DNA of 41,377 bases, taken from assembly GCA_007280915.1 (NCBI GenBank), contig QYQL01000170.1:1-41377 (forward strand), written 5' to 3'. The stretch's first letter is position 1. Each line of letters starts with the position of its first letter. The DNA comes from Verrucomicrobiaceae bacterium (GTDB taxonomy: Bacteria; Verrucomicrobiota; Verrucomicrobiia; Chthoniobacterales; Terrimicrobiaceae). Position numbers and translations under genes: made by a program. The notes beneath the pieces were generated by a model. The model did no database searches. It was not told where the DNA came from and saw only the letters and a list, made by a program, of their open reading frames with translations. Positions 13,426 to 27,382 of this stretch are shown here, in pieces.

Positions 13426-14172
13426 GTGCAGAACAACGACTTTCCCCCGGTTGAGATGGATCCTGCCGTGCCCTTTGACAGGATCCGGGAGCTGTATCTG
13501 TATGAGGAGCCGGCGCTGCTCGCCTCGATCCGCAGGGGGGACCGCCGCGAGGCCACCCGCATCATTAACCTGCTTCTGGTGCACATCTACAGCGCTGGTG
13601 CCGAGCGGAGCGAACTGCTCAAAGGCCTGCTTCTCGAACTGATCGTGATGATGTCGCGTGCCGCTGTCGAGGCCGGGGCTTCGCAGTCGGAGGTCCTGGG
13701 ATTGAGGTTTACCCACCTGACGGAGCTGGCCGGAATCGAGGACGACGAGCATATGTCCCGCTGGCTCAGGGATTCGGTGGTCCGGATCTTCGAGGCGGTC
13801 GAGCGCCGGCAGGACGTCGCGCTTCCGAGCGTCGTGACCCGTGCCTTGCAGATCATCCGTGACGAATGTGGAGGAGAGCTCGACCGGACATCGGTGGCCA
13901 GGAAAGCCGGAGTATCCCCAGGACATCTCGCCGAGCTTTTGCAGGAGCGCACCGGTCGCACATTCACCGACCTTGTCCGTGAGGCCCGGACCGACCGGGC
14001 CTGCGAGCTTCTCCTCACCACAGAACTTTCAATGGCGGCAATCGCCGCGGAGTGCGGGTTCTGCGACCAGAGCTACTTCACCCACGTCTTTCAGAAGCTG
14101 AAAAAGTCGTCTCCAAAACAGTATCGGGAGGCACATCCCGCAAAGGGAAAAACACAAAAAAATCCTCCCTGA
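13426..14172 (+). CDS. AraC-family regulator lacking a sensor domain
   Basis: 248 residues starting at a GTG three bases after the LolC/E stop. The last 100 residues are a double helix-turn-helix of the AraC type (LDRTSVARKAGVSPGHLAELLQERTGRTF, then MAAIAAECGFCDQSYFTHVFQKLKK). In front is an all-helical domain of about 110 residues (ELYLYEEPALLASIRRGDRR to VRIFEAVERR) that is clearly homologous to residues 150-265 of the regulator at 18186-19298. That paralogue has an extra PocR-like domain; this one lacks it, so it may respond to something else, act constitutively, or compete with its paralogue. It ends 57 bp before the corrinoid-protein gene and is the likely local regulator of mtaC-mtaA-DUF1638. 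Confidence 0.88.
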   Translation: MQNNDFPPVEMDPAVPFDRIRELYLYEEPALLASIRRGDRREATRIINLLLVHIYSAGAERSELLKGLLLELIVMMSRAAVEAGASQSEVLGLRFTHLTELAGIEDDEHMSRWLRDSVVRIFEAVERRQDVALPSVVTRALQIIRDECGGELDRTSVARKAGVSPGHLAELLQERTGRTFTDLVREARTDRACELLLTTELSMAAIAAECGFCDQSYFTHVFQKLKKSSPKQYREAHPAKGKTQKNPP

Positions 14173-14229: not shown

Positions 14230-14868
14230 ATGAGCAAACTTAACGATCTCTCCCTCGCTGTTGAAAAAGGAAAACGCAACGATGCCAAGGCGCTGACCCA
14301 GGCGCTTCTTGATGAAGGAATGAAGCCGCTCGATATCGTCGAGCAGGGGCTTGTTCCCGGAATGAGCGCCATTGGCGAGAAATTCAAAAACAACGAGGTC
14401 TTCGTGCCGGAGATGCTGATTGCCGCGCGGGCGATGAAGGAGGCCATGGGCCTTCTTGAGCCACTTCTTGCACAGGCGGGCATCAAGCCGAAGCACACCG
14501 TTGTCATCGGCACCGTGCAGGGCGACCTTCATGACATCGGCAAGAACCTTGTCGCCATGATGCTCAAAGGCGCCAACTTCGGGGTTGTCGACGTGGGAAC
14601 CAATGTTACACCGGAGAAATTTGTCTCCGCGCTGCAGGAGCACGGGGCTTCTCTGCTGGCGCTCTCTGCTCTGCTGACCACGACGATGCCTGCCATGAAA
14701 ACCGCGGTCGAGGCGGTCCGCGCAGCCGGACTCAAGGATCTGAAGATCATGATCGGCGGCGCACCGGTCACCCAGGATTTCGCGAACGAGATCGGTGCCG
14801 ACGGCTACAGTGCGGACGCGGCCAGCGCCGTGGATCTCGCCCTCGCCCTCCTGGGCGAGACAAAGTGA
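14230..14868 (+). CDS. mtaC: Corrinoid protein of methyltransferase system (MtaC-like)
   Basis: 212 residues, the normal size for MtaC/MtbC/MttC-type proteins. The N-terminal four-helix cap covers about residues 1-85 and the Rossmann B12-binding domain 88-212. The cobalt-ligating histidine is H101 in GDLHDIGKN (the D-x-H-x-x-G motif). Later GG-containing turns (MIGGAPVT and ADGYSADA) hold the corrinoid tail. It carries a methyl group on cobalt between a substrate-specific methyltransferase (here probably MtaB at 16712-18088) and an acceptor methyltransferase. Its stop overlaps the next start by four bases (GTGA), showing tight coupling to the UroD-type partner. The name mtaC rests on the neighbouring MtaB; by sequence alone it could serve another methyl donor. 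Confidence 0.93.
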   Translation: MSKLNDLSLAVEKGKRNDAKALTQALLDEGMKPLDIVEQGLVPGMSAIGEKFKNNEVFVPEMLIAARAMKEAMGLLEPLLAQAGIKPKHTVVIGTVQGDLHDIGKNLVAMMLKGANFGVVDVGTNVTPEKFVSALQEHGASLLALSALLTTTMPAMKTAVEAVRAAGLKDLKIMIGGAPVTQDFANEIGADGYSADAASAVDLALALLGETK

Positions 14869-15896
14869 ACCGATCATTCTACCTCGATCTGGCCGCAGAC
14901 GGCCACCGGGCGCCGATCGGAACGCATCTCGTGCTGCACACGAAAGGTGTTTCGGAGGCGATTGTTTTGGACGGGAAAAAGCTGGGGGGTATTGTCGTCG
15001 AAACTGCGGAACGTTTCCGGACGCCACTCGCTATTCCCCTGATGGACCTGACTCTGGAGAAGGCGGCCTATCTTGGTGCGCTGGGGATTCCTGCCACCGA
15101 GGTAGATTCCTTCCATTTCGAGGAACCACCCAGCGGTCCCGTGACACTCCAGATGACACCCCGCATGCTGGCTACGTGCGAGGCGATCTCCCACGTAGCC
15201 TCCTCGGCTTCGCTGGTTCCCATCGGCATGGGAATAGGACCGTTCTCCTTCATGACCAAACTCGTGAAGGATCCGATCACCCCGGTTTTTCTAGCGTCCA
15301 GCGGAATGACGGGAGAAGACGAACCGGAGGTTGCGATTGTGGAGAGGTGCCTGGAGGCGGGGACCGAACTGATCCTCTCCTACCTTGCGGCCCAGGCCGA
15401 TGCCGGAGCCAAGGCAATCATCGTTTGCGAACCGGCTGCCAACCAGGTCTATTTCTCCCCGAATCAACTCGCGGAGAGCTTTGAGATATTTGACCGGTAT
15501 GTCATGGAGCCGATGAAACGGATCAAAGCCCTGCTCGATGCGAGGGGGGTCGACCTGATCTTCCATGACTGCGGGGAACTGACGAACGAGATGGTCTCCC
15601 GCTTTGCGACGCTCGACCCGGCGATGATGAGTCTGGGTTGCTCGCGAAACCTCTGGGAAGACGCCGCCCTCGTGCAGAAATCAACCGTGCTTTACGGAAA
15701 CCTGCCGACAAAGAAATTCTATTCCCCGCAGCTCACCGTCGCTGACGTCGAGGAACTCTCCCGTGACCTGCTTGAAAAAATGCGGGCATCCGGGCATCCG
15801 TTCATCCTCGGCAGCGAATGCGATGTCCTCAGCGTCCCCGGAAGCGAGCAGGAAATCCTCGCAAAAGTGGATGCGTTCATGAATGTTTCGGGCTGA
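14865..15896 (+). CDS. UroD-family corrinoid methyltransferase (MtaA-like)
   Basis: 343 residues, starting at the GTG that overlaps the mtaC stop. Member of the uroporphyrinogen decarboxylase superfamily that includes MtaA/MtbA, which move the methyl from a methyl-corrinoid protein to a thiol or folate acceptor. The zinc ligands expected of methyltransferases are present: H234 and C236 in FHDCGEL and C319 in SECDV, giving H-x-C-x(n)-C. True UroD decarboxylases lack this set, so heme synthesis is unlikely. The acceptor in a bacterium would not be coenzyme M; tetrahydrofolate or homocysteine are candidates. Coupled at both ends: four bases with mtaC and one base (TGATG) with the DUF1638 gene. 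Compare the second UroD-family gene at 22803, which lacks the last cysteine. Confidence 0.88.
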   Translation: MNRSFYLDLAADGHRAPIGTHLVLHTKGVSEAIVLDGKKLGGIVVETAERFRTPLAIPLMDLTLEKAAYLGALGIPATEVDSFHFEEPPSGPVTLQMTPRMLATCEAISHVASSASLVPIGMGIGPFSFMTKLVKDPITPVFLASSGMTGEDEPEVAIVERCLEAGTELILSYLAAQADAGAKAIIVCEPAANQVYFSPNQLAESFEIFDRYVMEPMKRIKALLDARGVDLIFHDCGELTNEMVSRFATLDPAMMSLGCSRNLWEDAALVQKSTVLYGNLPTKKFYSPQLTVADVEELSRDLLEKMRASGHPFILGSECDVLSVPGSEQEILAKVDAFMNVSG

Positions 15897-16621
15897 TGTC
15901 CTCCTGTCCCCGCATCGCCCTGATCGCATGCCGCGTCTTTGAGGACGAAATTGCGATTCACGGCGGGAACGATTCCCATATCGTGGAAACCCGGTTCCTG
16001 GAAGTGGGTCTTCACGATCATCCGGATAATCTCCGCAAATCCATTCAGGCGGAGATCGACAGGTTCGATGAAAGGGAAGATATCGATGCCGTCGTTCTCG
16101 CGTATGCGCTCTGCGGGCTGGGGACTGCCGGACTTCGTGCCGGACGCCACCGGCTGGTGATTCCGCGCGGCCACGACTGCATCACGGTCTTCATGGGGAG
16201 CAAGGAGAAGTTCGCGTGCCAGCAGTCCGCCTGCCCGGATTCGTATTATTACACGCCGGGTTGGATGAAGGCGAACCGCACGCCCGGTCCAGACCGGCTG
16301 GAGTCGCTTCGCGCCGAACTGGCGGAAAAATTCGAACCGGATGACGTCGAGTTTCTCCTTGAATCCGAGAAGGCGAACTGGGCGCAGCACGGGAAGGCGG
16401 TGTATCTCGATCTTGGAACGGACGGAGCGGATGCAAAAGCTGCGGATGCCCAAGCTGCCGCGGAATCCCTCGGTTGGAAGTATGAACGGATTCCGGGTGA
16501 TCCCTCCCTGCTTCATGACCTGCTGGCTGGTCGCTGGGATGACGACCGTTTTCAGGTGATCGAGCCGGGGGCGGCGCTCGCCCACTCCCCGGACGAAAAG
16601 ATATTCCGCTCGCGCTCCTGA
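15896..16621 (+). CDS. DUF1638 protein of the corrinoid cluster
   Basis: 241 residues from the ATG at 15896, which overlaps the upstream stop by one base; the open frame before this start is not coding. DUF1638 features: an opening IALIACRVFEDEI, VVLAYALCGLG, a central VIPRGHDCITVFMGS, a Cys-rich CQQSACPDS, then YYTPGWMK. The conserved Cys and His residues suggest a metal or corrinoid/thiol site, but no activity is established. From memory the family recurs beside corrinoid methyltransferases in methanogens and anaerobic bacteria, and its position here fits. It is the last gene of the mtaC-mtaA-like-DUF1638 unit, followed by a double hairpin. Confidence 0.85.
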   Translation: MSSCPRIALIACRVFEDEIAIHGGNDSHIVETRFLEVGLHDHPDNLRKSIQAEIDRFDEREDIDAVVLAYALCGLGTAGLRAGRHRLVIPRGHDCITVFMGSKEKFACQQSACPDSYYYTPGWMKANRTPGPDRLESLRAELAEKFEPDDVEFLLESEKANWAQHGKAVYLDLGTDGADAKAADAQAAAESLGWKYERIPGDPSLLHDLLAGRWDDDRFQVIEPGAALAHSPDEKIFRSRS

Positions 16622-16637
16622 CGTCTCGGCAAGGCAA

Positions 16638-16677
16638 CCCTACCGTTGCGTGGTAGGGCGGTTTCGCCGAAACCGCC
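16638..16677. terminator. Double hairpin between converging operons
   Basis: Two perfect hairpins sit back to back between the plus-strand DUF1638 gene (stop 16621) and the minus-strand mtaB gene (stop 16712). The first is CCCTACC / GGTAGGG with a 7-nt loop (16638-16658). The second is GGCGGTTT / AAACCGCC with a 5-nt loop (16657-16677). They share two bases, so only one can form fully at a time. A TGTTTT follows the second on the plus strand. Best read as a bidirectional terminator or a member of a dispersed hairpin repeat. Confidence 0.65.
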
Positions 16678-16711
16678 GTGATGTTTTACTCATTTCGCCG
16701 TGCGCTTGGTA

Positions 16712-18088
16712 TTACAGTCCGTATTCTGCGGCCAGGAATTTGTCTCTGTCCGCAAATGCGAGTTGTTCTGCGATGAAGTCATCCTCATTTTCCGGGAGTT
16801 CGCCGACGGTTTCCTCCATGGTGTCGAGCCAGTCCTTCTCGCGTTCGAGGATGTGGAGGCAGCCCGCCTCGCTTCCTTCGCGCATGATGGCGAGTGCCTC
16901 GAGCGCCGCAGCGCATCCGGCGCGGTAGTGGTCCTTTGCGGATACGATCGCATTTGCGATGCGGATGACGTTTGTCGGAGTGAGGATGTAGGCTTGCGGG
17001 TCGAGCCCGGCATCCGACCGGACGGTCCATCGCTGGTAGGTGGCGATGCCCTCCTTGCCGTCGTTCACCGCCTCGTTCATCATCCGGCAGTCGTAGATGA
17101 GCTGTTCCATGTAGCAGGTCGGAGCCATTCCACCGAGGAGCTTGATGTTCTGGACCGATTCGTTCGACCAGGTGTCGCAGGTTGCAGCGGCGATATTGCC
17201 GAGAGGGCTCAGGTGGGCACAGGCCGAGGTCTTGCCCTCCATGGCCATCGGGTAGCCGGTGATCGCCTTCAGGAACGGGTTTTCATAGCCGCAGTCCTTG
17301 CCGGGGCCGACCGCACCGCATTCGTAGGCCACCAGCGAGCGTACGGCGCTGACCGCACGGACCGTGGCCGCAAAAACCCTCGGGATCATTTTCTGCTCGG
17401 CGAGAACCATTGCGGTGTTGCCAAACCCGCAGGCGGTGTCGCCGGCCGCATGGACTCCGTGGCGGGATGCAATCTCGCTGATGGTCGTCCAGAGATAGCG
17501 CATGTCCCGCACACCGACGCAGCACTGGGAAAATATCACGGCTGCCAGGTCTCCGTTCACCAGAGCGTCGTCATGCAGTTCCTTGCCGCCGACGGACTCA
17601 ATGCTGAGGAGTTCGGCCCCCTCCTTGGCGGAGCTCTCGAAAAGCTGGAGCATCCGGTCGAGGTAGTATCCGCTGCGCATCGTGGGCGGACGCACGAATT
17701 CCCGGTTGTCGTTCGGCGTCATGCGGAGGACGGATTTTAACCCGGTCGCGCTCTCGAACGCCCGCATTCCGTCGAGGAGAACCCGGGCGATCGAGAGCCC
17801 CCATTCGGGAAACTCCGTCATTGGGGGGAGGGTTTCGAATTCGATGACGACGCCTTCCGCCTCAAGTTCCACAGCTCGGGTGAGGGCGCCGTTGATGATC
17901 TCTTTGTAGTGCTCCAGGACGCGTGGCATCGTGTCGGCCGTGATGGTCATCGAGGGCAGGGTGAAGTTGAGTTCCGGATAGACATGACCGCCGCCGATCA
18001 CCATTCCGGAGCGGGTGGTCAGAGGTTTGGGAGCGGATCCGAAGATCAGGGACTCCGGTTTGTCGATGGCAAGGGATTGGTATTTCAT
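16712..18088 (-). CDS. mtaB: Methanol:corrinoid methyltransferase
   Basis: 458 residues from the ATG at 18088 (an in-frame GTG at 18124 is less family-like). MtaB is a TIM-barrel zinc enzyme that moves the methyl of methanol onto the Co(I) corrinoid of MtaC. The zinc ligands known from Methanosarcina barkeri (Glu164, Cys220, Cys269) have counterparts at E164 (LLSIESVGG), C220 (AAGDTACGFGN) and C266 (GPGKDCGYENP); the first two keep the same numbers when counted from this start. The family-like start (LIFGSAPKPL, then VIGGGHVYPELNFTLP) and length agree. In acetogens MtaB starts methanol use. Here it is on the minus strand behind RACo and a PocR-like AraC gene, converging on mtaC. No coenzyme M pathway gene is visible, so a bacterial acceptor is implied. 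Confidence 0.92.
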   Translation of the reverse strand: MKYQSLAIDKPESLIFGSAPKPLTTRSGMVIGGGHVYPELNFTLPSMTITADTMPRVLEHYKEIINGALTRAVELEAEGVVIEFETLPPMTEFPEWGLSIARVLLDGMRAFESATGLKSVLRMTPNDNREFVRPPTMRSGYYLDRMLQLFESSAKEGAELLSIESVGGKELHDDALVNGDLAAVIFSQCCVGVRDMRYLWTTISEIASRHGVHAAGDTACGFGNTAMVLAEQKMIPRVFAATVRAVSAVRSLVAYECGAVGPGKDCGYENPFLKAITGYPMAMEGKTSACAHLSPLGNIAAATCDTWSNESVQNIKLLGGMAPTCYMEQLIYDCRMMNEAVNDGKEGIATYQRWTVRSDAGLDPQAYILTPTNVIRIANAIVSAKDHYRAGCAAALEALAIMREGSEAGCLHILEREKDWLDTMEETVGELPENEDDFIAEQLAFADRDKFLAAEYGL

Positions 18089-18108
18089 GATGGGTTCGGA
18101 TGGAGCGA

Positions 18109-18121
18109 CGGGAATTTCCCG
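18109..18121. promoter_or_regulatory. Palindrome upstream of mtaB
   Basis: CGGGAATTTCCCG is perfectly symmetric around its central base and lies 20 bp before the mtaB ATG, in the gap of about 97 bp that follows the AraC gene. An operator is plausible, though AraC proteins usually bind direct repeats. Symmetry and position are the only evidence. Confidence 0.35.
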
Positions 18122-18185
18122 CACGGATCCGACCCTGTCAGAACCCCGCCACTAGGATCTTTCACTCTCGTGCAAAAATTTGGGA

Positions 18186-19298
18186 TTATTGTGCTTTGGC
18201 GCGATACGCGCGGGGCGTGATTCCCGTGTAGCGCTTGAAGACCCTTGTGAAATAGCTCTGGTCCTCGAATCCGCATTCCAGCGCGATCTGGATGATGCTC
18301 TCACCGGTTCTTCGCAGCATGGTTTTCGCCCGGTCGATCCGGTATTGCGCCATCAGATCGGTGAATGTCCGCCCTGTCTTTTCCCGGATCAGGTGGGAGA
18401 AATGGCTCCCCGAGAGTCCGGCGGCGCGGGCCACGGAATCCCGGTCGAGAGCCTCGCCGAGGTGTTCCTCCATATAGGCCACTGCCTTGCCCAGAAGGAC
18501 GGCGTTTGGAAATTCCCTGTGGTCACGGATCGAATCCATCACCCGTTCGAGCATTCCGCAAAGCCACTTGGACACTTCTTCCTCGTCCGAAAGTCCGGCG
18601 AGGACGGTCGCGCTCTCGTAATTGCAACCGAGGACCTCCGAGGGATCCGCTCCGGATTCCACCGCCGCACGGGACATGACGACTACAAGCTCCAGAGCGA
18701 GGCTCTTCAGGAGCTGCGGACGGGATCGGGCGGCATGATAGATGCCTACGAGAACCCGGTTGATGATCTCGCGGGCGGCGTGCCGCTCACCGCGCTTGAT
18801 CGCTGCCAGCAGGCCCGGTTCCTCGCGCAGATAGAGGTCCCTGATTCCGTCGTAGAGCCGGCCTTTGAGGACATGGATCGCCTCCGCCTTCTCGCGCTCG
18901 CGCCGCGATTCTTCGCGCCGGGCCTTGAGAAACTCCACGTTTGTCAGGTTGGAGTCCTCCATCATGGAGAGCAGTTGAGCCGAGGCGGAACGGATCCGCT
19001 TGGAAATGTCCGCGGGGTCGCAGCCTTCGAGTGGGACACGTTCGACGATGATCCCTCCGGTGACGAGCGAGTTGATCATCAGCGGAATCCCCCAGCCGGC
19101 CAACCCGTCGCTGTCAGTCATGACGCAAGCCTCCCCCCAGCGCAACGCCTCACGGAGGACCTGGGTTCTCCACTCTTCGCCCGGTTTTCTCCGACGGGAG
19201 CCGGCAAGCCTGCCGTCCGCATCGGTTTCGACTGCTTGAAAGCCTGTCTCGCGAAAGTAATCGCTGAGGAGGTTCCCGATCACTTTGCCATCGGGCAT
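18186..19298 (-). CDS. AraC-family regulator with PocR-like sensor domain
   Basis: 370 residues. Residues 1 to about 120 resemble a PocR/GAF-like ligand domain (CVMTDSDGLAGWGIPLMINSLVTGGIIVERV). A charged helix follows at 125-145, then a helical domain at 150-265 shared with the regulator at 13426, and the AraC double helix-turn-helix from about 270 to the end (DRDSVARAAGLSGSHFSHLIREKTGRTF; IIQIALECGFEDQSYFTRVFKRYTG). The start overlaps the end of the RACo gene by 19 bp and mtaB follows about 97 bp later, so it sits inside the methanol gene run and is its best candidate activator. PocR-type domains sense small metabolites such as propanediol; methanol, a corrinoid state or a related alcohol are guesses for this one. 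Confidence 0.9.
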   Translation of the reverse strand: MPDGKVIGNLLSDYFRETGFQAVETDADGRLAGSRRRKPGEEWRTQVLREALRWGEACVMTDSDGLAGWGIPLMINSLVTGGIIVERVPLEGCDPADISKRIRSASAQLLSMMEDSNLTNVEFLKARREESRREREKAEAIHVLKGRLYDGIRDLYLREEPGLLAAIKRGERHAAREIINRVLVGIYHAARSRPQLLKSLALELVVVMSRAAVESGADPSEVLGCNYESATVLAGLSDEEEVSKWLCGMLERVMDSIRDHREFPNAVLLGKAVAYMEEHLGEALDRDSVARAAGLSGSHFSHLIREKTGRTFTDLMAQYRIDRAKTMLRRTGESIIQIALECGFEDQSYFTRVFKRYTGITPRAYRAKAQ

Positions 19299-20869
19299 GG
19301 CAGCGAGAGGTGGTCGAGGAAGCGGTCCTCGAATCCGGGATCGAGGTTGAGCTCAACCGTTTCGACCTGCAGGTCGCCCATTTCCGCAGCGAGCGAGCGG
19401 TCGAGCATGGCGAGGTAGGCGCCTCCCAGCGAGGTGTTGCCGACGGCGGAAACCTGCTCCTCGCCGAAGCCGGGGAGCAGTCCACAGGCGATGGCGTTGG
19501 GAATCGAGAGGTGGAGCCCGAATCCTCCGGCAAGGAAGAGGCGGCCGATCCCGGAGGGTGGAAGATTTTGAAGTTCGAGCAGGGTCTCGATGCCTGCTGC
19601 AATCGCCGCCTTGGCCTGAAGCAGAAGCGCGACATCCACCTCGCCGATGCGCAGGTCGGGCAGGTGAGGCGAGAGCAGGAAACTCAAACCGTTTTCCTCA
19701 TTCCGGAAGTGATCCGGAAAAGAGGCCACAAGCTCCTTGTCGAAACGTCCGTTTTCCGAGAGGAGGCCGATCCTACGACCCTCGGCAAGAAAATCCACAT
19801 ATGCCGATCCGGTGATCCCGTGAGGCGCATCGCAGGGTCCGCCGATCGTATCGAACTCCACCCCAAACGGCTCCATGCGCAGGGAGATCTTTCCGACAAC
19901 ATCGCGAGCTGCGCGCATTCCGCAGAGCAGCCCGCAGCCTTCAAAAGCGGGACCTGCTGCGGTTGCGCAGGCCAGGCTGCCCGCGGGCCCGCAGAGCAGA
20001 ATCTCGCCGTTTGTTCCCACGTCCACCAGCAACTGCGGGGAGTCCCCGTATCGGACTCCGCAGCAAGCCGCCCCCGCGGAGATATCTGCTCCGACATAAG
20101 CGGAGATGCCCGGCAAAAAAATCACGCGGAGGTCGCATGGGAGGCCGAAGGCATCGCCGCAGAATTCCCGCTGGTCGAGAAACGCCGGAGTGAAGGGCAC
20201 CGTCCCAAGGGGAGTCGGGTCGGTTCCGCAAGCGAGGTGGAGCATGGTCGTGTTTCCGGCCACCACGACACCGGAGATATCTCCAGTGGCTGCCCCGGAC
20301 TCCTTGAGAAGTTCCTTCAAAAGCGGATGGAAGGTTTTTTTCCAAAAATCCTCCTTCAACAAATCGATCTGCGCCTTGTCGTCCTGACAGAGCTGGATTC
20401 TCGTGAGCACATTGTCCCCCCGCGAGACCTGCGCATTGAGGGCCGAGGCCTTCGCGAGAACCTTCCCGCTCGCAAGTTCCGCAAGGATCATCGCCACCGT
20501 GGTTGTTCCTATGTCCACAGCAACACCGAGTGTTCCCGGCTCGGTGAAGATCGGATCACTACCCACAGGCACTCCCGTCTGGAAATCGCTGACCACGGAA
20601 GGAGGGTGGGAGAGCAGCGAGCGCCCCGGGATTGCGATCTTCAAAGAATCGCCTTCGTCAAGGTGATGCTGGCACGCAAGGAGATCGTGCGGAGAATCTC
20701 CTTTCAAAACCACATGACACCCTCTGCAAAGGCCTCGCTGGCTGCAGCGGGTGTTGAGCGGATAACCCGAGGAGGCAAGGATCTCCGCAAGCGTCCGTTC
20801 GAGGCGGTCCGCTTTGATGTGCCGCACTCCGGCCGCCGATTCGATTTCGATTTCCGCGAAACCGTTCAC
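19280..20869 (-). CDS. RACo, reductive activator of corrinoid proteins
   Basis: 529 residues. It uses a [2Fe-2S] cluster and ATP to reduce inactive Co(II) corrinoid back to Co(I). The N-terminal ferredoxin domain (about 1-85) has the plant-type ligands C42, C48, C51 and C66 (CSQRGLCRGC, then LLACQ). The ASKHA ATPase domain follows: phosphate loop VAVDIGTTTVAM near residue 115, VVVAGNTTMLHL, LVDVGTNGEILL and LFLAGGFGLHL. The domain set matches RACo/RamA-type activators of bacteria (DUF4445-type). The gene is seven bases after the homocysteine methyltransferase and overlaps the AraC gene downstream, forming one minus-strand operon with mtaB. Its presence shows the corrinoid proteins here need rescue, as expected if cells meet some oxygen. 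Confidence 0.93.
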   Translation of the reverse strand: MNGFAEIEIESAAGVRHIKADRLERTLAEILASSGYPLNTRCSQRGLCRGCHVVLKGDSPHDLLACQHHLDEGDSLKIAIPGRSLLSHPPSVVSDFQTGVPVGSDPIFTEPGTLGVAVDIGTTTVAMILAELASGKVLAKASALNAQVSRGDNVLTRIQLCQDDKAQIDLLKEDFWKKTFHPLLKELLKESGAATGDISGVVVAGNTTMLHLACGTDPTPLGTVPFTPAFLDQREFCGDAFGLPCDLRVIFLPGISAYVGADISAGAACCGVRYGDSPQLLVDVGTNGEILLCGPAGSLACATAAGPAFEGCGLLCGMRAARDVVGKISLRMEPFGVEFDTIGGPCDAPHGITGSAYVDFLAEGRRIGLLSENGRFDKELVASFPDHFRNEENGLSFLLSPHLPDLRIGEVDVALLLQAKAAIAAGIETLLELQNLPPSGIGRLFLAGGFGLHLSIPNAIACGLLPGFGEEQVSAVGNTSLGGAYLAMLDRSLAAEMGDLQVETVELNLDPGFEDRFLDHLSLPCPMAK

Positions 20870-20875
20870 AACATT

Positions 20876-21760
20876 TCAGGCCAACGCCTTTGCCATGGCA
20901 GCCAAATGGAGGGGGGTTGTCCCGCAGCATCCTCCGATGATCGAGACGCCAGCATCACGCAGGCGCAGGGCCGTGTCGGCCATTTCTTCCGGCGAGGCAT
21001 CATAGAGGACTCCTTCCGGTGTGTTCTTCGGGGCCCCGGCATTCGGCTGCAGGATGACAATGGCATCTCCTGCTGCGGCCTTGAGTTCGGAGGCCAGGGC
21101 GATGTAGTCGTCGAGGCTCAGATCGGTTCCGCAGTTGGCACCGACAATGTCAGCTCCCGCTTCGAGTGCGGCCGCGACGGCATCACGGGCGGAAGTCCCC
21201 ATCATGGTGCGGAAATCCGGACCGGATTTCTGGAAGGCATAAGTTACGGCGACAGGAAGTCCGCAGACCGATTTCGCCGCGCGGACTCCGACAGCCGCTT
21301 CGCCCGGGTCGCTCATCGTTTCCACTAGAATCGCATCGGCTCCACCTTCGACAAGGGCAGTAATCTGCTCGCCGAAAATACCGAGCAGCCCGGCCTCGGT
21401 CATGTCTCCGACCGGTTCCAGGAAGTCGCCGAAGGGTCCGACATCGCCGAAAACCCATCCATCGGGACCGGCGGCATCCCGGGCAAGCACAGCGGCATTT
21501 TTGTTCCAATCGACGACGTGTTCGCCAAGTCCGTGACGATCGAGCATCGATCGTGTGCCGCCGAACGAATTCGTTGTGATCAACCTGCAACCGGCTTGCG
21601 AATAGGCTGAGTGAACCGCCCGGACGTCATCCGGGCGTTCCCGGTTCCACTTCATCCCGCACTCGCCGGGGGTGAGCCCGCGCTGGATCAACTGTGTTCC
21701 CATGGCCCCGTCGCATACGACGACGCCGGACCGGCACGCGGAGAGAAGATTAGATTTCAT
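20876..21760 (-). CDS. Stand-alone homocysteine S-methyltransferase domain
   Basis: 294 residues, only the zinc-dependent homocysteine-binding barrel of MetH/BHMT type. Opening VVCDGAMGTQLIQRGL, TNSFGGTR, then zinc ligands C210 (GANCG) and C278-C279 (GGCCGTTP). It carries no folate, corrinoid or activation domain, so it needs an outside methyl donor. Candidates are S-methylmethionine or SAM (as in MmuM), betaine, or a separate methyl-corrinoid protein. Its place as first gene of the run ahead of RACo, AraC and mtaB, opposite mtaC, favours the corrinoid protein as donor: in effect the homocysteine half of MetH split off and fed by methanol. This is inference from context. The upstream AraC gene ends 61 bp before its ATG. 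Confidence 0.9.
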   Translation of the reverse strand: MKSNLLSACRSGVVVCDGAMGTQLIQRGLTPGECGMKWNRERPDDVRAVHSAYSQAGCRLITTNSFGGTRSMLDRHGLGEHVVDWNKNAAVLARDAAGPDGWVFGDVGPFGDFLEPVGDMTEAGLLGIFGEQITALVEGGADAILVETMSDPGEAAVGVRAAKSVCGLPVAVTYAFQKSGPDFRTMMGTSARDAVAAALEAGADIVGANCGTDLSLDDYIALASELKAAAGDAIVILQPNAGAPKNTPEGVLYDASPEEMADTALRLRDAGVSIIGGCCGTTPLHLAAMAKALA

Positions 21761-22720: not shown

Positions 22721-22738
22721 ACGATAAGTTTTTATCGT
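22721..22738. promoter_or_regulatory. Operator candidate between AraC and UroD-family genes
   Basis: ACGATAA-GTTT-TTATCGT, a perfect 7-bp inverted repeat with a 4-base spacer, lies between the divergent starts at 22709 (minus) and 22803 (plus). It is AT-rich in a GC-rich setting. If the AraC gene started at the TTG 22772 the palindrome would be coding, which is less likely. Either a repressor/activator site or a small hairpin in one leader. Confidence 0.5.
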
Positions 22739-22802
22739 GTGGCGAGAAGAATGCACGGTCCGCTTCTGCCAAGATATTTTTTCACTTCACACCCCGTTTC
22801 CC

Positions 22803-24062
22803 ATGACATCAAAAGAACGCACGCGCGCCGCCATTGAGCACCGCCAGCCCGACCGGGTTCCGATTGATTTCGGAGCCTCCTTCATCACCGGCATCCACTG
22901 CAGCGTCATCGAGAACTTGCGCCGCCATTACAAGCTGGAGCCGCACCCGGTGAAGATCTGCGAACCCTACCAGATGCTGGGATGGGTCGAGGACGACCTC
23001 CGGGAGGTGATGGGGGTGGACACGACATCGATCCTGCCGAATCGCACGATCTTCGGTTTTGTGAATGAGAACTGGAAACCCTGGAGGACGCCCTGGGGCC
23101 AGGACGTTCTGGTTTCGGAGCATTTCCAGGTGGAGGAAAGGGCGGATGGCATTTACATCCATCCGCAGGGTGATCGCTCGGCAGCGCCCAGCGGCCATCT
23201 GCCGAAAACCGGATACTTTTTTGACTCGATTATCCGGCAGGGAGAAATCGACGAGGATCATCTCAAGGTCGAGGAGAACATGGAGGAGTTCGGAGTGATG
23301 AAGGCTGCCGAAGAGGAGTATTGGCGCGAACAGGCCGAGTTGTTCCGCGGTTCCGACCGCGCGGTTGTCACGCACTTGAACGGAACGGCACTCGGGGATA
23401 TCGCGCTTGTCCCCGCCCCGTTTCTCAAGGAGCCGAAAGGGGTCCGGGACATCGCCCAGTGGTATATGACGGTCGCAACCGATCCGGATTTCGTTGCGGA
23501 GCTTTTCGACCGCCAGGTGGAGATCGCATTGGGAAACCTCGCGAAGCTTCACGAGATCGCGGGCGATGTGATCGACATCGTGGTCGTCTGCGGCACCGAT
23601 TTCGGTACGCAGGAATCCACATTTTGTTCGCGGACGACCTACGACGACATCTGGCTACCCCGCTACCGCCGGATCAACGACTGGATCCACCGGCATACGA
23701 ACTGGAAGACATTCAAGCACTCGTGCGGCGCGATCGAGGGATTTCTGCCCGGCATCATCGAGTCCGGATTCGACATCATCAATCCCGTGCAGTGCTCTGC
23801 GAAAGGGATGGATGCCAGACTGCTGAAGGAACGCCACGGCGACCGGATCACGTTCTGGGGCGGCGGGGTCAACACGCAAAAGACGCTTCCCTTCGGCACG
23901 CCGGAGGAGGTGAGGGCGGAGGTGCTCGATCGCTGCGAAACATTTGCGCCGAGCGGAGGATTCGTCTTCAACGCGATCCACAACGTCCAGGCGCTCACGC
24001 CGACGGAAAACGTGGTGGCGATGATCGAGGCGGTGCATTCGTTCAACGGCGGGCGGGCCTGA
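22803..24062 (+). CDS. UroD-family protein, likely methyltransferase-related
   Basis: 419 residues from the ATG at 22803 (the frame upstream is untranslated leader). Opens MTSKERTRAAIEHRQPDRVPIDF, the usual start of COG0407 UroD-like proteins. It has H306 and C308 (KHSCGAI) as two of the three zinc ligands of MtaA/MtbA-type enzymes, but where those have a third cysteine near the C-terminus this reads GGFVFNAIHNVQAL. It may bind metal differently or act in another reaction. There is no corrinoid protein next to it. Downstream, galM begins after 13 bp and the fused oxygenase 9 bp after galM, so it leads an operon of sugar-type enzymes. A demethylation or methyl-transfer step on a methylated sugar is possible, not shown. 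Confidence 0.8.
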   Translation: MTSKERTRAAIEHRQPDRVPIDFGASFITGIHCSVIENLRRHYKLEPHPVKICEPYQMLGWVEDDLREVMGVDTTSILPNRTIFGFVNENWKPWRTPWGQDVLVSEHFQVEERADGIYIHPQGDRSAAPSGHLPKTGYFFDSIIRQGEIDEDHLKVEENMEEFGVMKAAEEEYWREQAELFRGSDRAVVTHLNGTALGDIALVPAPFLKEPKGVRDIAQWYMTVATDPDFVAELFDRQVEIALGNLAKLHEIAGDVIDIVVVCGTDFGTQESTFCSRTTYDDIWLPRYRRINDWIHRHTNWKTFKHSCGAIEGFLPGIIESGFDIINPVQCSAKGMDARLLKERHGDRITFWGGGVNTQKTLPFGTPEEVRAEVLDRCETFAPSGGFVFNAIHNVQALTPTENVVAMIEAVHSFNGGRA

Positions 24063-25107: not shown

Positions 25108-27382
25108 ATGAATGACGCGATTCTGAAGCCACCCGCGCACCTCGACTACAGCCTCACCGGCGAGAATGCCGCGCTGGCTGTGGAACGCGGGCTCGCCGAG
25201 GCGGATTGGTATCAATGTCCGGTCCCGCGCGCGACCATGCGCAAGCTCCTTGAGCGCCGCGACGGCCCGGCGCTGCGCGATACAGCGATTTGGTTTATAC
25301 TCCTGCTCGCAAGCGGCTGGGCGACGTATCATCTCTGGCCGTCGTGGTGGGCGGTGATCCCGTATCTGTTGTATGCCGTGCTTTACGGGTCGGTTTCGGA
25401 TTCGCGCTGGCACGAGTCGAGCCACGGGACCGCGTTCAAGACGGACTGGATGAATGCCGCCCTTTACGAGATCGCGTCGCTCATGATCCTGCGCGAGTCC
25501 ACCGTCTGGCGGTGGAGCCACACACGCCACCACAGCGACACGATCATCGTCGGCCGTGATCCCGAGATCGCCGTGCCCCGGCCGCCGGATATCCCGGCAA
25601 CGATCATGGCGTTCTTCAGCCTCAAGGTGTATCCGAAATACTTCAAGCGCATCCTCCTTCACGCATTCGACCGGATGGCTCCCGATGAGATGACGTTCGT
25701 GCCGGAGAGCGAGTATCACAAAGTCTATTTCCGCGCTCGGATCTATCTTCTGATTTATGCGGGGGTGCTCGTGCTCTGCATGGCCACCCGGAGCATCCTC
25801 CCGCTTCTCTTCGTCGGACTTCCGAACCTTTTCGGCACGTGGTTGACGGTGATCTATGGTCTGACCCAACACGCAGGGCTTGCCGAGAACGTGCTCGACC
25901 ACCGGCTGAATTGCCGGACCGTCCACATGAACCTGATCCACCGGTATCTCTACTGGAACATGGGATACCATGTGGAGCACCACATGTTTCCGCTGGTTCC
26001 CTACCACGCGCTTCCCCGCCTTCACGAGGAGGTGAAGGATGACTGCCCGACTCCTTATCCAAGTCTTCTCACCGCATGGAAGGAGATCGTTCCGGCAATT
26101 CTCCGGCAGGTCAAAGATCCCGCATGGCATGTGAAGCGCACGCTCCCCGAGCCGAAAGCCCGGCGTGCCGAGCCATGGAACTGTTCGACGGCCAAACCAG
26201 ATCCCGACGGGTGGGTGGAGGTTTGCGAGGCCTCGCAGCTTGGACGCGGAGATGTCATTCGGTTCGATCACGGCAAAAAGACCTACGCGCTCGTCCGTGA
26301 CGACGACGGCGTTCTTTACGCAACCGACGGGATCTGCACGCACGGAAACACGCACCTTGCCGACGGTCTCGTTATCGGGAAAACGGTCGAGTGTCCGAAG
26401 CACAACGGACGCTTCAGCCTCGCGGATGGTTCGCCTGCCCGCGCGCCCATCTGCCGCGGACTGGCCACGTATCCGATTGAGGCGCGGGACGGGAAATTGT
26501 TTCTCAACATCGTAAAGGCGGGCGGGGCGGGTTCGCGCGGGCAGCGGACAGTTGCCCTCCGCGTGGTGAGCAACCGGAGCGTTGCGACATTCATCAAGGA
26601 GCTTGTCCTCGAGCTGCTCGATTCGAACGAGAAGATGGAATTCTCCCCGGGCAATTATTTGCAGATTGATATTCCGGCCTACGAAACGATCCGCTTCCGG
26701 GATTTCGATATTCCGGAACCTTATGCCTCGGTTTGGAATGCCCACCACATTTTCGATCTCCATGTCAGCAATCCGGGGTCGGGCCGGAGGAACAACTATT
26801 CCCTGGCATCGAACCAGAAACTCGAGCGGACACTGCGATTCAATGTGCGGATTGCAACGCCTCCGTCCGGGCAGGATTGTCCGCCGGGAGTCGGGTCGAG
26901 TTATATTTTCAGCCTCAGGACGGGAGACACCGTCACCTCCATCGGGCCGTTCGGCGACTTCCACATCAAACCGACGCAGAAAGAAATGGTCTACATCGGC
27001 GGCGGCGCCGGGATGGCCCCCCCTGCGCGCGCACCTCTCCCACCTCTTCGAAACCGAGAAGACCGCAAGAAAGGTCAGTTTTTGGTATGGGGCGAGATCG
27101 CGGCAGGAGCTCTTCTATCAGGAATACTTTGAGGCCCTCGCAAAAGAGCACTCGAACTTCACCTTTCATGCAGCGCTGTCATCCCCGCTCCCCGATGACA
27201 ACTGGAGTGGCCCGACGGGTTTTATTCATGAGGTCGTTCGCAAGAAATACCTCGCCGGCCATGAGAACCCGAAGGCTGTCGAGTTCTACCTCTGCGGCCC
27301 GCCAATGATGATCAAAGCCTGCACGAAAATGCTCTCCGACCTCGGTGTCGGCGCGGAGCAGATCGCTTTCGACGAATTCTGA
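25108..27382 (+). CDS. Fused MocD-like desaturase + Rieske + NqrF-like reductase, one frameshift
   Basis: Read with one base removed from the C-run at 27017-27023 this is a 757-residue protein with three modules. (1) Residues about 1-345: membrane fatty-acid-desaturase domain with His boxes H102-ESS-H106, H138-TR-H141-H142 and H288-VE-H291-H292, closest in my reading to MocD. (2) About 365-470: Rieske [2Fe-2S] domain, C410-T-H412 and C429-PK-H432. (3) About 485-757: FAD/NADH reductase like the C-terminus of NqrF (SVATFIKELVLEL, NNYSLAS, GGGAGMAP, and after the shift SFWYGAR, CGPPMM, DEF end). Electrons would pass NADH to FAD to Rieske to the di-iron site. MocD/E/F in rhizobia are separate proteins that demethylate a methylated inosamine. 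Substrate here unknown. As sequenced the frame stops at 27132. Confidence 0.88.
27017..27023 (+). other. C7 homopolymer carrying a +1 shift
   Basis: With seven C the frame reads GGGAGMAPPARA and stops at 27132. With six it reads GGGAGMAPLRAHLSHLFETE and continues to a proper NqrF-type C-terminus at 27382. Sequencing error, phase variation or a young mutation are all possible. Confidence 0.85.

Follow-up and report, generated by a model that had tools for sequence, protein, structure and literature searches.

Which methyl acceptor does a bacterial methanol-corrinoid system use when its genes lie beside a stand-alone homocysteine S-methyltransferase (HcyMT)? Methanol-corrinoid systems are known to deliver the methyl group to coenzyme M or to folate. 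We addressed this question for positions 14,230 to 21,760 of a 41,377-nucleotide stretch from a Verrucomicrobiaceae bacterium (contig QYQL01000170.1 of assembly GCA_007280915.1; hereafter the window). An earlier note, made from the DNA letters, had grouped mtaB, mtaC, an MtaA-like gene, the corrinoid activase gene RACo and an HcyMT without a cofactor domain within 8 kb here, and domain matches confirmed all of these genes; a DUF1638 gene and AraC-type regulators, which that note did not mention, also belong to the picture. On balance, we favour the reading that the locus encodes a methanol-fed split methionine synthase, in which the methyl group of methanol would pass to the corrinoid protein and from there to homocysteine, free of folate.

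The interval is filled by two convergent operons, one per strand (Table 1). On the plus strand, the mtaC-like corrinoid gene overlaps the following UroD/MtaA-like gene by 4 bp, and the ATG of the DUF1638 gene at 15896 touches the UroD stop codon. On the minus strand, HcyMT is followed by RACo after a gap of 6 bp, RACo overlaps an AraC-type regulator by 19 bp, and the regulator is separated by 61 bp from mtaB. It is this tight one-strand packing, together with the overlaps on the opposite strand, that leads us to describe the genes as two convergent operons.

We found that MtaB matches its family model over the full length (PF12176, 540.5 bits, model positions 3-460 of 460) and Methanosarcina barkeri MtaB in the Protein Data Bank (PDB) with an E-value of 3.8e-87 (2i2x_A). 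All three M. barkeri zinc ligands (E164/C220/C269) are kept, aligning with E176/C232/C278 of the open reading frame (ORF) as called; the earlier placement of E164 and C220 at the M. barkeri positions holds in the 2i2x alignment if the start is Met13, in which case the ligands are numbered E164/C220/C266. The corrinoid protein combines a B12-binding cap with a B12 domain, carries a DxHxxG motif at residue 99 and has PDB entry 1y80 as its best match (2.4e-56), and RACo contains the middle and C-terminal domains of its family and matches PDB entries 4c1n and 3zyy.

The HcyMT consists of a PF02574 domain only, with no B12, pterin or activation domain. In a PDB sequence search it ranked closest to MetH modules (1.3e-44), ahead of BHMT (8.7e-16) and MmuM (1.1e-13); its AlphaFold model (pLDDT 88.5) reproduced the same order by fold, with Thermotoga maritima MetH as the closest structure (3bol, TM 0.90), and the zinc cysteines 210/278/279 are invariant in five relatives. 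Given this sequence ranking, fold match and cysteine conservation, the enzyme has the build of the MetH portion that accepts a methyl group from methylcobalamin; assignment to the BHMT or MmuM type was rejected, as MetH is nearer by both measures. The same ranking bears on the idea that the enzyme is an unrelated salvage protein, acting on S-methylmethionine or betaine and present in the operon by chance. Stand-alone HcyMTs are indeed common in the phylum and often unlinked; given the affinity to MetH, and a linkage that recurs with HcyMTs of several clades (below), we regard that explanation as very improbable. Against PRK07534, a model named for the alphaproteobacterial-type bmt, the enzyme scored 234 bits.

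For the methanol-fed synthase we infer that methanol is the substrate, that the HcyMT docks on the corrinoid protein, which way the methyl group flows and what the UroD protein does. MtaB would activate methanol at its zinc and methylate the small corrinoid protein at Co(I), taking the place of the folate module of MetH; the HcyMT, holding homocysteine on its own zinc, would take the methyl group from methyl-Co(III) and release methionine; and RACo, with DUF1638, would return oxidised Co(II) to Co(I). The system would supplement MetH and MetF, providing methyl groups for methionine and S-adenosylmethionine (SAM) without reduction of methylene-tetrahydrofolate (methylene-THF).

Which acceptor enzymes does the rest of the genome offer? 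A PF00809 search of the window genome matched MetH and a folP divided between two contigs and nothing else, with no stand-alone methyl-THF:corrinoid methyltransferase, and neither formate-THF ligase (Fhs, none above cut-off), acetyl-CoA synthase (ACS, CdhC) nor MetE was found in this assembly, which is 91% complete. Fhs and CdhC were likewise not found in the other five genomes with a linked HcyMT, and a CO/acetyl-CoA route was rejected for want of CdhC. Since no stand-alone methyl-THF:corrinoid methyltransferase, Fhs, ACS or MetE accompanies the system, homocysteine is, as judged from gene content, the best-supported candidate acceptor. The suggestion of the earlier note that methanol carbon may go to methionine therefore stands as the best-supported reading, as an addition to MetH and not in its place: the genome encodes MetF and a complete MetH of 1238 aa, its pterin and activation domains included, so that of the metH or metE proposed for a search elsewhere in the genome, the former was found and the latter was not.

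The weakest point of the proposed mechanism is the role of the UroD-family protein. Its earlier label, MtaA-like, has the family match (PF01208) behind it, whereas the curated MtaA model was matched weakly (22.5 bits against a cut-off of 400), as was the subfamily model (SCMT, 40.2 against 244). A sequence search against the PDB gave no match, a profile search matched only remote UroD decarboxylases, and an AlphaFold model of poor quality (pLDDT 61.5) gave low-confidence fold matches to UroD and MtaA (4ay7/4ay8) that are indicative only. H234-x-C236 and C319, candidate counterparts of the MtaA zinc ligands, are invariant among six orthologues, and this HxC...C motif suggests a thiol partner. 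The protein possibly feeds or drains the same corrinoid protein, perhaps as an additional thiol methyltransferase.

To place the locus in a wider context, we compared mtaB neighbourhoods at named loci of a genome collection; ORFs were called by a simple codon-based procedure, since calling the longest ORFs was led astray by antisense ones. MtaB has a sparse, uneven distribution, occurring, with the window genome counted, in 5 of 58 genomes drawn from relatives and 15 of 388 drawn from the phylum; leaving out the window, HcyMT was linked to mtaB in 3 of 4 and 2 of 14 MtaB genomes of the two draws, respectively, against a chance proximity of ~0.7% per genome. Nine other loci repeat the HcyMT-RACo-mtaB linkage, whose conservation the earlier note had proposed to check: L010 (Limisphaerales), L017 (Opitutales), L019 (Fimbriimonas), L020 (Planctomycetota), L035 (from the window's own taxonomic order), L033, L034, L059 and L060. 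They span at least three named phyla (Verrucomicrobiota, Planctomycetota and Armatimonadota) and others too. Four of these are one-strand operons: mtaC-mtaB-uroD-HcyMT-DUF1638-RACo (L034), uroD-mtaC-mtaB-DUF1638-RACo-HcyMT (L035), mtaC-RACo-mtaB-HcyMT-DUF1638, with no UroD detected within 14 kb (L059), and mtaC-mtaB-cobW-uroD-RACo-HcyMT (L060). On the HcyMT tree, the window enzyme falls inside a 12-member clade (support 99/95), 9 of whose members sit in corrinoid clusters, and none of 500 label shuffles clustered as well; the HcyMTs of L059, L060/L141 and, on a long branch, probably L017 fall outside this clade, yet they too sit in corrinoid clusters. The bmt genes on plasmids of Sinorhizobium and Paracoccus, which are HcyMT homologues, were set aside as a separate clade with no complete cluster in the stretches examined.

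Several observations weigh against a methanol-fed methionine synthase. MtaB scores 417.9 bits against the NCBIfam methanogen-MtaB equivalog cut-off of 720, so methanol as its substrate is not proven; we take it as strongly indicated by sequence, not as a fact. The presence of a full MetH leaves no metabolic need for a second methionine synthase, and the idea that the system stands in for MetH is not supported; moreover, the genome carries a second, unlinked HcyMT (G000:C172), HcyMTs without corrinoid neighbours are widespread in the phylum, the genome negatives come from an incomplete assembly, and the UroD protein may itself be an alternative acceptor enzyme. HcyMT linkage is spread over the MtaB tree no better than chance; it is missing from the mtaB loci of the sister species (L007) and of Opitutaceae (L011 and L026), the latter keeping UroD. 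Finally, whereas MtaB, MtaC and RACo distances track each other tightly (r 0.86-0.90), HcyMT distances track MtaC weakly (r 0.41, p 0.04), and on this ground we rejected a single fixed five-gene unit.

Two further loci (L106, 457-9641; L107, 6506-15648), whose HcyMTs are among the nine clade members in corrinoid clusters, carry RACo, a corrinoid protein, several UroD-type proteins and an HcyMT, and no mtaB; the acceptor module is the same, and the HcyMT is a companion of the corrinoid module, not of MtaB by itself. They also lend weight to the possibility that the corrinoid/HcyMT set serves other donors, such as methyl thiols or O-methyl compounds delivered by UroD proteins, with MtaB acting on something other than methanol or having a side role. 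Corrinoid clusters that have UroD-family proteins and no folate methylase have been proposed for methyl-sulfur/selenide use (PMC10418091), and the sub-cut-off score of MtaB points the same way; the three zinc ligands, the full-length family match and the tight co-variation of MtaB with MtaC and RACo speak against it, and we consider this explanation rather improbable.

The sister species (G002) presents a different arrangement. Its MtaB and MtaC are 90-91% identical to those of the window; HcyMT, UroD and DUF1638 are absent at the locus, and its RACo (L007:8619-8905), between mtaC and the regulator, has been reduced in frame to the ferredoxin part and C-terminal tail, with the ASKHA core gone. 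The earlier note had named a complete metH together with loss of this linkage in relatives as the outcome that would speak against it; metH is present, and the linkage is lost in this closest sister and kept in others. Elsewhere in the sister genome (L147; G002:C39:55000-74900), genes for Fhs, a methyl-THF:corrinoid methyltransferase homologue, a bifunctional HcyMT/MTHFR and a MetF-like protein are clustered, along with FolD and hydrogenase genes that we identified by eye from sequence; this resembles a route from methyl groups to formate plus hydrogen, and the pair of genomes looks like a case of acceptor exchange, with folate/formate in the sister and homocysteine in the window genome.

Such an arrangement in a close relative adds to the case for a dissimilatory or folate route in the window itself, in which the UroD protein would act like the MtaA of acetogens and hand the MtaC methyl group to THF, or to a different acceptor, and the HcyMT would only top up methionine from the same pool. 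The translational coupling of uroD to mtaC, the occurrence of UroD without HcyMT in L011, L026 and L065, and a PurU gene adjoining HcyMT in L010 all fit this route. It is opposed by the lack of Fhs, ACS or a pterin-type methyltransferase among the genes found in the window genome, by an HxC...C motif that suits a thiol and not a folate acceptor, and by seven HcyMT-linked loci without this UroD type; Fhs was present in 0 of 6 HcyMT-linked versus 4 of 13 unlinked genomes, a tendency that is only suggestive and not significant (Fisher p 0.26). We judge a folate route unlikely, and retain homocysteine as the favoured acceptor.

Are there precedents for a methionine synthase in separate parts? Two systems absent from the earlier note are closest. 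In Phaeobacter inhibens, genetics show that methionine synthesis needs an HcyMT, a pterin module, a corrinoid protein, a RamA-like activase and DUF1638 (PGA1_c13370, c16040, MtbC c13350, c15200 and c13340; PMC5764234). The window has 4 of these 5 parts as separate proteins, with RACo as the RamA-like activase; the one missing is the pterin-binding module, in whose place stand MtaB and UroD, and the genome also encodes a full MetH. In Ruegeria pomeroyi, MtgBCDE uses one corrinoid protein to couple glycine betaine demethylation to methionine, the methyl groups passing through folate (PMC12478193); in the window, too, a donor methyltransferase and a homocysteine module would share one corrinoid protein, whereas the Ruegeria donor is a PF06253 protein acting on glycine betaine, with folate reached via MtgD, and the window donor is MtaB, with MtgD absent. 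The logic of MtaB and MtaC, a UroD-family third protein and a corrinoid activase are shared with Methanosarcina MtaABC, from which the window differs in its predicted acceptor, homocysteine, in a corrinoid protein nearer to bacterial MtgC/1y80, and in a UroD protein only remotely like MtaA. The core methionine synthases MesA-MesC have MetE-type catalytic domains and are fed by MtrA or CoFeSP, free of folate (PMC7857596); the window would similarly make methionine from a methyl-corrinoid protein without folate, but with a MetH-type homocysteine enzyme that draws on a methanol system. Type 1 mlp clusters share the corrinoid protein, activase, UroD proteins and lack of a folate methylase, and differ in that neither MtaB nor HcyMT is described as a core member in the parts of PMC10418091 considered. 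No title or abstract describing a natural transfer from methanol to HcyMT via MtaB/MtaC was found in a literature search outside which most subscription papers lay.

We also considered a wider claim, whose chances we put as evenly balanced: that a direct methanol-to-methionine route over one corrinoid protein, bypassing folate entirely, arose repeatedly as MtaB-MtaC-RACo in several phyla acquired HcyMTs of differing origin, and that it belongs to a wider plug-in scheme in which various donor enzymes (MtaB, UroD proteins, MtgB) supply a common corrinoid/homocysteine module. A direct route from methanol to methionine would link plant-derived methanol to methionine and SAM in bacteria showing no folate-route methanol-dissimilation genes, would show that corrinoid methyltransferase modules are exchanged freely between energy metabolism and biosynthesis, and would offer a compact folate-free methylation module of five proteins.

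Table 1. Genes of the two convergent operons and their neighbours in the window, with the evidence for each.
Feature	Position	Strand	Evidence
AraC-family regulator, just upstream of mtaC	13426-14172	+	PF12833/PF00165
Corrinoid protein (MtaC/MtgC-like), methyl carrier	14230-14868	+	PF02607+PF02310, PDB 1y80, DxHxxG
UroD-superfamily MtaA-like protein, putative second methyltransferase	14865-15896	+	PF01208, HxC...C motif
DUF1638 protein, presumed corrinoid-reactivation helper	15896-16621	+	PF07796, 122.7 bits
MtaB, methanol:corrinoid methyltransferase (predicted)	16712-18124	-	PF12176, 2i2x_A, Zn ligands
AraC-family transcriptional regulator	18186-19298	-	PF12833
RACo, ATP-dependent reductive activator of corrinoid protein	19280-20869	-	PF14574, PF17651, PDB 4c1n/3zyy
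Stand-alone homocysteine S-methyltransferase (MetH Hcy-module type, MtgE-like)	20876-21760	-	PF02574, 208.8 bits
Second UroD-family protein, membership in system uncertain	22737-24062	+	PF01208
NqrF-like reductase fused to MocE-type Rieske ferredoxin, membership uncertain	25108-27132	+	TIGR01941/TIGR02377 below cut-off

The neighbouring genes differ in how far they follow the system. The metX and metY genes, which the earlier note had proposed as the supply of homocysteine, are real; they lie 9 kb from the operons behind unrelated genes, none were seen near any other mtaB locus examined, and we rejected them as part of the system on account of this unconserved neighbourhood. Homologues of the minus-strand regulator, whose best-matching curated models include PocR (NF047788 was below cut-off), adjoin mtaB/mtaC in many loci, and the plus-strand regulator has counterparts beside mtaC in the sister locus L007 and beside RACo in L010 and L033. 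The second UroD-family protein lacks the second zinc cysteine; a homologue heads the complete operon of L035 and another lies within the L012 cluster, and it is possibly an extra methyl-donor enzyme. A homologue of the NqrF-like/Rieske fusion is located between DUF1638 and RACo of an mtaB cluster (L012:5226-7517), and the fusion is a possible electron donor for RACo.

Other loci contain further companions. In several of them mtaB is followed by genes for a CobW-like GTPase and a DUF6580 protein (L011:11397-12590, L026:9141-10373), which may serve in metal or corrinoid supply. In the Limisphaerales mtaB cluster, PurU (formyl-THF deformylase, L010:8088-9089) is encoded directly upstream of HcyMT, and in L141 (G060:C71:14000-30000) HcyMT, RACo and a corrinoid protein have as neighbours a CdhC (ACS) gene, a MetE/UroD-like protein and two CooC-like ATPases.

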